The notes beneath the pieces are model-generated. The model was not told the origin of the DNA and did not search any database. It saw only the letters and a program-made list of their open reading frames with translations. This document shows positions 59,861 through 63,056 of a stretch of DNA of 64,000 bases, one piece after another. The stretch is from Nitrososphaerota archaeon (GTDB lineage Archaea; Thermoproteota; Nitrososphaeria; Conexivisphaerales; DTJL01), in NCBI GenBank assembly GCA_021324115.1, contig JAJPJS010000025.1, positions 386,122 through 450,121 of the forward strand, given 5' to 3'. The first letter of the stretch is position 1. Every line of letters starts with the position of its first letter. The position numbers and the translations under genes are program-made.

Positions 59861-61171
59861 TTGAAAACCAAAACTGAATCAAAAGAAGTGGAATGGTATC
59901 TAGACTTCGTCGACAAGAAGGCCAGACCCGAAAAGGATGATCTCGTAGCACTTTTCAGAATAATCCCGGCGGAGGGATTCACCATTGAGGAGGCTGCTGG
60001 CAGGGTTGCATCTGAAAGCAGTGTGGGAACATGGACGACGCTGACTACTCTGACACCACGTGTCAGAAAACTTATGGCAAAAGCTTACCAATTTTCAGGA
60101 GAGTTCGTGTCGATAACATACCCTCAGGAACTGTTCGAAGAAGCCAACATGCCCCAGGTACTCAGCTCTGTGGCGGGCAACGTTTTCGGCATGAAGGCAG
60201 TCAGGGGGCTGAGACTGATCGACATCAGCTGGCCGGAACCTCTGGTGAGTAAGTTCAGGGGGCCCCAGTTTGGTATGCAGGGTATACGCAGCTTCATGAA
60301 AATCAGGAAGCGTCCGCTCACGGCATCCGTACCAAAACCAAAGCTTGGATTGACTTATGAGGAGCATGCCAAGCATGGCTACGAGGCTTGGAGCGGAGGC
60401 CTCGACCTACTGAAGGATGATGAAAACCTGACAAATCAGGACTTCAACTCCTTCGAAAAGAGAGCCAGATTATGCTACAGGCTCAGGGACAAGGCTGAAA
60501 GGGAAACAGGTGAGAGAAAAAGCTACCTGATCAACATAACTGCAGAAACTAAGGAGATGGAGAGGCGGGCGCGGCTGGTAAAGGAGTTGGGAGGGGAGTA
60601 CGTCATGATCGACATATGCACTACAGGCTGGGCTGCACTACAGACTCTCAGGGAGACATGCCAAGATTTGGGTCTTGCGATACATGCCCATCGGGCGTTT
60701 CACGCGGCATTTACAAGGAATCCTGAGCACGGGATGTCGATGACCGTCCTGGCCGAAACGGCTCGGCTGATAGGCGTGGACCAACTGCACATAGGTACGG
60801 TGATCGGAAAGCTTGAGGCGTCGGAGGAGGAGGTCCTTACGCTGAGGGACAAAGTCGTGGGCAAGAAGTATGAAGGCAGGAGGAACACGCTCCCGCAGAA
60901 CTGGTTCGGTAAGAAAGATGTACTTCCCGTCAGCTCGGGCGGGCTTCACGTGGGGCTTCTGTACCCTCTCCTGAAGATGCTGGGTACGGACATAATCGTT
61001 CAGATGGGCGGAGGGATATGGGGGCATCCGATGGGAGGAAGGGCAGGAGCGAAAGCGTTGAGGGAAGCCATCGATGCGTACATGTCGGGTTCGGATTTGA
61101 ATGATACCACCAAGGCAAGCAAGGAGCTTAAGGCAGCCCTTGAGAAGTGGGGTACCAAGACCTACGAGTGA
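59861..61171 (+). CDS. rbcL: RuBisCO large subunit, form III-like
   Basis: Active-site motifs intact: PKPKLGL, GGLDLLKDDEN, HAHRAFHAAFTR, HIGTVIGKLE, VSSGGLH, GGGIWGHP. Confidence 0.93.
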   Translation: MKTKTESKEVEWYLDFVDKKARPEKDDLVALFRIIPAEGFTIEEAAGRVASESSVGTWTTLTTLTPRVRKLMAKAYQFSGEFVSITYPQELFEEANMPQVLSSVAGNVFGMKAVRGLRLIDISWPEPLVSKFRGPQFGMQGIRSFMKIRKRPLTASVPKPKLGLTYEEHAKHGYEAWSGGLDLLKDDENLTNQDFNSFEKRARLCYRLRDKAERETGERKSYLINITAETKEMERRARLVKELGGEYVMIDICTTGWAALQTLRETCQDLGLAIHAHRAFHAAFTRNPEHGMSMTVLAETARLIGVDQLHIGTVIGKLEASEEEVLTLRDKVVGKKYEGRRNTLPQNWFGKKDVLPVSSGGLHVGLLYPLLKMLGTDIIVQMGGGIWGHPMGGRAGAKALREAIDAYMSGSDLNDTTKASKELKAALEKWGTKTYE

Positions 61172-61254
61172 AAATCGACTACTGACGTATTAAACAAGAA
61201 GAAAAGACGTCCGGTCAAAGGTTTTAACCCAGAGTCAGACCGGGGGGCAGACCC

Positions 61255-62751
61255 GTGGAAGAGCTCAGGAATCTTGCTGAACTTATTTTGTCGCAAAATA
61301 ACGTTTTGGACAACCCCAGACCGTCTCTTCTCCGGGAAGTTTCAGAGAAGTATTCCATAGAAAACGAATACGGATGCCTGCTTTTTCATTCGAAGGTGGC
61401 GGCCAGGAGCCCCGAAGCAACTGTGGATGACGTAAACAGGGCTGATTCTTCGGTCAGGGAAAGCATACTGAGGGACATTGAAGAAGTAAGAAAACACATC
61501 GAAGGCAGAAAGATGATCAGGGTTGACCGGGGGATAGGAACCAGTGAAAGATTTTCACTCAAGGCTACTGCGCTGGTTTCTGACAGATATCCACACTTGG
61601 CTCTCATGTTCCAGATGAATTACTTTCCCACCAAAGAAGACAGGCATTCAGACATAGTCACAATCGACATTCCTGAATGGCCGAAGAAGGCGATATACGT
61701 CGATCCGAAGGAAAATGTAAACCTGATTCTGGGCACGGATTACTATGGGGAGCTCAAGATGAGTGCATTAAGGCTGGCGATGAATTATGCCAGGGAAAGA
61801 GGTGCTGGTCTGGGCGTACATGCAGGAGGAAAGGTGTTCAGGTTCAGGAAAGATGGGAAATGCATGGAAAAGGGCGCGCTCGTTTTTGGATTGAGCGGAA
61901 CAGGTAAAACCACAATTACCGTATCCGACCATGGAATTTCGGCTCCCGATGAGGTCTCCGTAAGACAGGATGACATCATGATTCTGTTTCGAGATGGTTA
62001 TGCGGCGGGGACAGAAATGAATCTGTACCCCAAAACTGACAGCATAAACACATTACCGGAGTTGAAACATGCTGCGACCCATCGTGATTCCATACTTGAG
62101 AATGTTTCTGTTAAGATGGGAAAGGTGGATTTTGATGACACTTCGTTTAACCCGAACGGAAGGGCGATAGCTCTCCGGAGTCAGATAAAAACCGTCGATG
62201 ACAGGGTGGACATAAAGAAGATCGACTTTCTGTTCTTTCTCACAAGACGGAACGACCTGCCTGTGGCTGGAAGACTGAAGAGTAAGGAGCAGGCAGTGGC
62301 CTACTTTATGCTGGGTGAATCTATCATGACCTCCGCGGGGACTACGAATAAAGAGCTTGTCGGAAAGGCCATCCGTGTCCCCGGCTTCGACCCCTTTATT
62401 ATAGAACCAAAGTGGTTATCCGGAATCAGACTGCTCGAAATACTTGAGCAGGCAGGCGACATAACCGCTTACGTTATAAACACCGGTCACGTTGGCCAAA
62501 GGAAGATTCCTCCCTCGGTCACCAAGGCTGTAGTACTCTCAATTGTAAAGGGCAAGTGTTCTTGGGAGTTCAGCGAGGAACTGAAATATGACATGCTGAA
62601 GAGTGCATCGAATGTAGACATCACAGAGTTTGATCCGAAAAATCAATTTGGAGATAATTATAAAGAAATCATGGACACTCTTTGGGAGGAAAGGAGGAGT
62701 TATTTGTCGAAAGCGTTTCCGGAACTTCAATATTTAACGGCTTACCTGTAG
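61255..62751 (+). CDS. pckA: Phosphoenolpyruvate carboxykinase (ATP)
   Basis: Kinase loop ALVFGLSGTGKTTITV; QDDIMILFRDGYAAGTEMNLYPKTD. Confidence 0.93.
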   Translation: MEELRNLAELILSQNNVLDNPRPSLLREVSEKYSIENEYGCLLFHSKVAARSPEATVDDVNRADSSVRESILRDIEEVRKHIEGRKMIRVDRGIGTSERFSLKATALVSDRYPHLALMFQMNYFPTKEDRHSDIVTIDIPEWPKKAIYVDPKENVNLILGTDYYGELKMSALRLAMNYARERGAGLGVHAGGKVFRFRKDGKCMEKGALVFGLSGTGKTTITVSDHGISAPDEVSVRQDDIMILFRDGYAAGTEMNLYPKTDSINTLPELKHAATHRDSILENVSVKMGKVDFDDTSFNPNGRAIALRSQIKTVDDRVDIKKIDFLFFLTRRNDLPVAGRLKSKEQAVAYFMLGESIMTSAGTTNKELVGKAIRVPGFDPFIIEPKWLSGIRLLEILEQAGDITAYVINTGHVGQRKIPPSVTKAVVLSIVKGKCSWEFSEELKYDMLKSASNVDITEFDPKNQFGDNYKEIMDTLWEERRSYLSKAFPELQYLTAYL

Positions 62752-62914
62752 TTTTCCTGATCGATTTGATTCAGACAGCAAATAGAAAACAACCAATATT
62801 AATTCCAGCGAGATATCAAAAATGCCTTAGGATTCGTGCTTGTAAAATTTATTTTTCTGTGAGTTGATTCATGCTTAAATAGCATGGCCCTTTGAGGCGT
62901 TATGGTAGCCCGGT

Positions 62915-63056
62915 AGCCCGGTCGAGGCTTATGCCGCCGAATCTAGCGGCCAAGGATCCCAGGCTCTGGATCTCCTACTGGAATGGGCTAAGACTCACCT
63001 TCCTGGGTGAGAGGGGAACCCTGGGGACGAGGGTTCGAATCCTTCCCGGGCTACCA
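62915..63056 (+). tRNA. tRNA-Gln (anticodon CTG) with two apparent introns, CCA encoded
   Basis: Folded by hand: acceptor AGCCCGG/CCGGGCT + A + CCA; T arm GAGGG-TTCGAAT-CCTTC; D arm ATCT-AGCGGCCAA-GGAT; anticodon stem CCAGG/CCTGG; loop CTCTGG... Requires removal of about 62923-62939 and about 62970-63018. Confidence 0.8.

Follow-up and report, generated by a model that had tools for sequence, protein, structure and literature searches.

How can a tRNA gene be spliced when one of its introns lies so close to the 5′ end that the splice motif and the acceptor stem draw on the same bases? The question is raised by positions 62915–63056 of the window, the 64,000-nucleotide stretch of a Nitrososphaerota archaeon contig that we analysed. 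Removal of 17 nt and 49 nt from this locus leaves a clean 76-nt tRNA-Gln(CUG) with an encoded CCA. A sequence-only reading of the window had described all arms of a 76-nt tRNA-Gln with CCA, interrupted by two insertions of these sizes; both lengths are borne out, and the cloverleaf is intact once the insertions are removed. The gene is composed as follows:

62915–62924, + strand: exon 1, tRNA-Gln(CUG) positions 1–10, AGCCCGGTCG, the same as the 5′ end of orthologs that lack intron 1
62919–62922, + strand: acceptor nucleotides 5–8 (CGGT), the 5′ side of the central helix of the bulge-helix-bulge (BHB) motif of intron 1, pairing with 62936–62939 (GCCG)
62925–62941, + strand: intron 1 (10/11), 17 nt, AGGCTTATGCCGCCGAA, assigned from the BHB and from ortholog comparison
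62942–62969, + strand: exon 2, D arm to position 37, with anticodon CTG, assigned from ortholog comparison
62970–63018, + strand: intron 2 (canonical 37/38), 49 nt, assigned from the BHB
63019–63056, + strand: exon 3, position 38 to the encoded CCA
63046–63056, + strand: 3′ acceptor strand, base 73 and CCA, the partner of exon 1 and of the leader copy described below

The position of intron 1 was fixed by comparison with orthologs. Those that lack it (L011, L012, L008 and others) read AGCCCGGTCGTCTAGCGGCC, or nearly so, and in other families of the order (e.g. G004, G009 and G010) the first insertion is absent and the sequence is AGCCCGGTCGTCTAGCGG, or nearly so. Predicted removal of intron 1 gives a AGCCCGGTCG/TCTAGCGGCC junction that matches the intron-free L011, L012, L008 and others. 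We conclude from these orthologs that intron 1 is located between positions 10 and 11, and not at 8/9 as first proposed, a register off by two nucleotides. Its BHB has a 4-bp central helix (CGGT/GCCG) between two 3-nt bulges that contain the splice sites (CG^A and AA^T), followed by a 3-bp inner helix (GGC/GCC); there is no outer helix, which makes it a relaxed form. At intron 2, the BHB is formed by nucleotides of the anticodon loop and the 3′ end of the intron, as for a canonical 37/38 intron, with anticodon stem CCAGG/CCTGG, central helix CTCT/GGGG, bulges GG^A and AA^C, and an inner helix, TCTC/GAGA, read directly from the sequence. The 49-nt interruption after position 37 is exactly as the sequence-only reading described it, and the BHB motifs that it proposed to look for are present at both junctions.

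Neither ARAGORN nor Rfam (gathering threshold) detected the gene at 62915–63056, as expected given that it is doubly interrupted; the only tRNA reported in the window was a tRNA-Arg. A BLAST search of the genome itself (2.14 Mb, 95% complete) revealed no second copy of tRNA-Gln(CTG), the other strong match being only the 3′ part of a separate tRNA-Gln(TTG). An intact second copy elsewhere had been named as the sign that the locus is a pseudogene, and no such copy appeared in this search. Both introns, with the same splice junctions, are kept in four genomes of the family (G000–G003), so the first insertion is no chance fit. These data support a doubly interrupted, single-copy tRNA gene with one canonical and one non-canonical intron. 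A split or permuted tRNA was considered and rejected because all exons are linear within one 142-nt locus: they follow one another in order, with no halves on separate transcripts and no 3′ half preceding a 5′ half. Upstream of the tRNA, 59861–62751 contains two long ORFs that, judged by eye, resemble those for a RuBisCO-family protein and an ATP-type phosphoenolpyruvate carboxykinase.

A doubly interrupted tRNA of this kind had been expected to need a broad-specificity splicing endonuclease. The genome contains two splicing endonuclease genes, one for an Aeropyrum-like catalytic alpha subunit and one for a separate beta-like subunit. For the alpha product (180 aa), the match is to the Aeropyrum pernix catalytic subunit (3p1z, E 3e-47); its alignment with 3p1z_B covers the catalytic segments and the loop (gvaKpkg / vEKPRG), and the Tyr/His/Lys residues and the loop lysine are present. 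The beta-like product (192 aa) is homologous but lacks the catalytic His and Lys at the aligned positions. A lysine in the Crenarchaea-specific loop confers broad specificity (PMC6379350). Judged by sequence, the enzyme has the features of an (alpha-beta)2 endonuclease with a Crenarchaea-specific loop, and we conclude that the genome encodes a predicted two-subunit endonuclease of the broad-specificity Aeropyrum type. The enzyme architecture that the sequence-only reading wished to see identified thus matches its expectation. Its description of the genome as Thermoplasmata-like is not supported, since the Thermoplasma acidophilum enzyme is a narrow-specificity alpha′2 (PMC6379350), whereas here two genes encode an enzyme with the Crenarchaea-specific loop.

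Formation of the BHB at intron 1 has a cost: with CGGT (62919–62922) in the BHB helix, the full acceptor stem cannot form. For 10/11 introns in general the BHB central helix is made with acceptor nucleotides 5–8, and for 8/9 introns, which occur in the related genes described below, with nucleotides 3–6, the outer helix including nucleotides 1–2. As read from these pairings, the BHB and the acceptor stem are predicted to compete for one strand. The leader of the gene contains a second copy of the acceptor 5′ strand, which the sequence-only reading did not record, downstream of a promoter element:

62874–62881, + strand: box A (TATA-like) promoter element, CTTAAATA, 41 nt upstream of the true 5′ end
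62903–62913, + strand: leader copy of the acceptor 5′ strand (a ‘spare’ or placeholder strand), TGGTAGCCCGG, 11/11 complementary to 63046–63056

The complement of the leader copy comprises the 3′ acceptor strand, base 73 and CCA, and a leader copy precedes the Gln(CUG) gene in all four family genomes. Among the four Gln(CTG) genes of the family, L001, L002 and L004 encode CCA and the G001 gene (L003) does not. In the latter, the leader copy TGATAGCCCGG complements the gene's own CCGGGCTATCG with ten Watson–Crick pairs and one T.G; hence, the extension of the copy follows the trailer.

The promoter distance points to the same part of the leader. Box A is 33 nt from the leader copy of tRNA-Gln(CUG) by the script's measure. 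In ordinary tRNAs of the genome with a clear box A, the box starts 30–36 nt before the mature 5′ end, with one outlier at 73 nt that is probably a false match, and in all 13 copy-bearing genes of the family box A is 40–49 nt from the true 5′ end and 30–37 nt from the copy. The leader copy therefore sits where ordinary tRNAs start, and is predicted to be transcribed.

The association between early introns and leader copies extends well beyond this gene. Introns at 4/5 to 10/11 were found in 19 tRNA genes, 18 of which carry a leader copy; these 18 encode tRNAs for Gln, Thr, Asn, Ser and His, and come from three archaeal families. Within the family, all 13 genes with 8/9 or 10/11 introns have the copy (Gln and Thr in four genomes, Asn in three, Ser in two), these being four ortholog groups and not 13 independent events. 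The genes for Thr(GGT) (G000–G003), Asn(GTT) (G000–G002) and Ser(TGA) (G000 and G001) each combine an 8/9 intron with a copy. The Ser orthologs of G002 and G003 have neither the early intron nor the copy, and both are likewise missing from the orthologs examined in other families of the order. No leader copy was found in the genes examined in the same genomes with D-loop, 25/26 or ordinary 37/38 introns; the tRNA inventory of the genome, compiled from searches and targeted stretches, may be incomplete. The tRNA genes of G000 (L046–L064 and L088–L096) are rich in introns (D-loop, 25/26 and 37/38), and several score under the standard tRNA cut-off. The G000 tRNA-Asn(GTT) gene (L064/L120; G000:C27:22970-23107) and those at L121 and L122 apparently have three introns (8/9, ~30/31 and ~37/38) in addition to the leader copy.

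Exact 7/7 leader copies occur in 13 of 145 distinct tRNA genes scanned, all 13 with early introns, and in none of the remainder; shuffled leaders give exact copies in 0.14%. Weaker complementarities of 6–8 nt in the leaders of other tRNAs were rejected: they do not exceed chance level, and they are either out of register or rich in G.U pairs.

Six Thr, Asn and Ser sequences were used to build a covariance model (R1) of the layout, with which 251 genomes of the class were searched. The top two matches of the model outside the family were Ser(TGA) of G163 and Thr(GGT) of G187, each with an 8/9 intron and a copy, and the next matches examined were ordinary tRNAs or tRNAs with introns elsewhere. 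Because this search favours copy-bearing genes by design, we also traced partial tRNA hits regardless of their leaders, which revealed three more genes in G187: Gln(TTG) with a 10/11 intron and a 6/7 copy, His(GTG) with a 4/5 intron and a 6/7 copy plus two further pairs, and Gln(CTG) with a 10/11 intron. The His(GTG) intron (L190; G187:C12:39150-39750) is 13 nt long and lies inside the acceptor strand, with central helix TGGC/GTCA; the leader copy is GGCCGTC, including the −1 G. The sole exception found is Ala(GGC) of G187, which has an intron at ~9/10 and no copy, so the rule is not absolute. At this Ala locus (L188; G187:C16:12200-12800) the insertion is 12 nt and the central helix fits only three of four pairs. 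We propose a class of spare-acceptor-strand tRNA genes, defined by a leader copy complementary to the 3′ acceptor strand in combination with an intron no further in than about position 11, to which tRNA-Gln(CUG) belongs. Searches for leader copies could recover further tRNA genes that standard finders miss.

Several features suggest that pairing is the reason why the copy is maintained. The 3′ strand of Gln(CTG) in G187, CGGGGCT, is matched perfectly by the leader copy AGCCCCG, whereas it forms one G.U wobble with the true strand, AGCCCTG; the central helix of the intron is CTGT/GCAG, versus CGGT/GCCG in the family of the window, and so differs in step with the true strand. The −1 base of the copy pairs with base 73 in 17 of the 18 genes (T-A, A-T, C-G, G-C or T.G), the exception being Thr of G187 (T and T). 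Covariation was scored on an alignment of six sequences (A2); in two MAFFT alignments (A1 and A3) the leader copies were out of place, and these were not used. The score was 0.654, compared with 0.232 in shuffles, of which 0/500 scored as high, and sliding the partners destroyed it. In these six sequences, pairing in the leader:3′ helix reaches 97.9%, and four of its eight pairs show two-sided changes; in the BHB central helix pairing reaches 95.8%, and three of the four pairs show changes. The structure was derived from this same small alignment, and we therefore count the covariation as support, not proof, for a copy kept for pairing.

Constrained folding points in the same direction. With the copy present, the state in which the leader occupies the 3′ strand and the BHB is formed beats the true acceptor stem by 2.7–9.8 kcal/mol in 13/13 family genes; without the copy, the BHB state loses by 5.2–14.9 kcal/mol. 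The sign agrees for Ser of G163 and for Thr, Gln(TTG) and Gln(CTG) of G187; His of G187 differs, its BHB state being favoured whether or not the copy is included. A single mismatch interrupts the central helix in three of the four Thr genes. By nearest-neighbour energies, pairing with the leader is still preferred over the true acceptor strand after intron removal.

We consider it probable that the leader encodes a placeholder, which would hold the 3′ acceptor strand and tether the short 5′ exon during splicing, and would later be displaced and removed. From the sequence and the computed folding, the leader copy would pair with the 3′ acceptor strand, allowing the body of the pre-tRNA to fold, and the genuine acceptor strand would thereby be freed to form the BHB with the intron. 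The alpha/beta endonuclease would then cut, and the 5′ exon of 8–10 nt would stay tethered to the tRNA for ligation, because it is still joined to the leader copy. Finally, the genuine strand would replace the copy and RNase P would remove the leader. Since leader pairing is computed to be the more stable even after splicing, this exchange would need something beyond the energy model, and may be driven by tertiary folding, processing or protein. Bacterial RNase P is inhibited when the leader pairs across base 73 (PMC9433436). This suggests that splicing comes before 5′ processing here, and pairing that reaches base 73 and beyond probably holds back end-processing until splicing is complete. 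Counting against the placeholder reading, such an order is opposite to that in Methanopyrus, where end-trimming precedes splicing (PMC3695527).

Other explanations of the leader copy start from some of the same observations. The copy could be a functionless, passive scar of intron arrival, for example a short tandem duplication left by insertion or recombination at the 5′ end. Its normal promoter distance is what would be seen if the copy marked the original 5′ end and a second strand and intron had been inserted after it, and a mobile-element model of tRNA intron gain that leaves a 5′ tRNA fragment as a direct repeat has been proposed (PMC3293823). However, a 7-nt scar should decay, yet for Gln, Thr and Asn the copy persists in three or four genomes, next to spacers that differ. 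In addition, the copy in Gln(CTG) of G187 matches the 3′ strand and not the true 5′ strand, and pairing of −1 with base 73 exceeds a simple copy. We therefore regard a mere scar as unlikely; a scar can still be the origin of the copy, and is compatible with a later function. The same promoter distance would also fit a gene in which the first copy is the genuine mature 5′ acceptor strand and the second lies inside a longer intron. That arrangement is very improbable: U8, and in Gln also C9 and G10, follow the second copy only, the spacers after the first copy (T, A, none; AGTT, TCA, TTTT, ATT; etc.) provide no consistent U8, and the BHB bulges come after the second copy. Moreover, Gln of G003 and Asn of G000 each have a first copy with a mismatch to the 3′ strand, whereas the second is always fully paired.

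The inhibition of bacterial RNase P by leader pairing with the 3′ RCCA (PMC9433436), together with pairing to base 73 in 17/18 genes, would equally suit a copy that acts mainly as a brake on end-processing, occupying the 3′ acceptor strand, base 73 and CCA so that RNase P and RNase Z are kept off until splicing is finished, with no help to the BHB. Genes with introns elsewhere in the same genomes (D loop, 25/26 and 37/38) also need ordered processing but lack the copy, and computed BHB formation depends on the copy; we consider this reading rather improbable. We give almost no credence to a decaying pseudogene, to which the failure of standard tRNA finders might point, given a single-copy locus with exons, junctions and introns conserved in four genomes, and with an intact cloverleaf and CCA.

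Extending the placeholder reading from this gene to archaea in general, we lean slightly towards a rule in which an intron that breaks or adjoins the acceptor 5′ strand is accompanied by a spare strand in the leader, which would serve as placeholder and tether and be exchanged afterwards, forcing splicing before 5′-end maturation. If true, the leader copy would be a cis-acting element that has so far gone unnoticed in tRNA genes, and a compact natural system for RNA strand exchange during maturation. It would also help to explain the rarity of introns near the tRNA 5′ end, because splice motif and acceptor stem compete for the same bases there, and it predicts splicing before RNase P action, the reverse of the Methanopyrus report.

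Non-canonical, split and permuted tRNAs are covered by reviews and surveys in the open-access literature (PMC4090602, PMC3218864, PMC8450103, PMC4033280, PMC3978253, PMC4390854 and PMC3293823). We found no mention of a leader copy of the acceptor strand in the portions of these seven sources used here, to which the comparisons with them below also refer; absence there is not proof. The closest relatives by intron type are the archaeal non-canonical introns with relaxed BHBs, such as those of the multi-intron tRNAs of Thermoproteales and the 3/4 intron (PMC4090602, PMC8450103), which share with the present genes BHB-type junctions, short introns, several introns per gene and a two-subunit broad-specificity endonuclease. 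The 8/9 and 10/11 positions of the present genes are absent from the examples in the review. In the split tRNAs of Nanoarchaeum and Caldivirga (PMC4090602, PMC3218864), too, sequence outside the mature tRNA base-pairs to hold exons for splicing. However, their complementary leaders pair with each other, whereas each present gene is predicted to yield one cis transcript whose leader pairs with the mature 3′ acceptor strand. The disrupted tRNA-Thr of Caldiarchaeum (PMC3293823) resembles the present genes in having an extra 5′ tRNA portion upstream of an intron-bearing copy, but that fragment is 1.8 kb away beside a recombinase gene, whereas the present copies are 7–11 nt long, 0–9 nt upstream and inside the predicted transcript. 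Finally, as in the RNase P anti-determinant formed by leader and 3′ RCCA (PMC9433436), the pairing of the leader takes in base 73 and CCA; there, an intact acceptor stem is lengthened by one to three pairs, whereas the present genes duplicate the whole acceptor strand.
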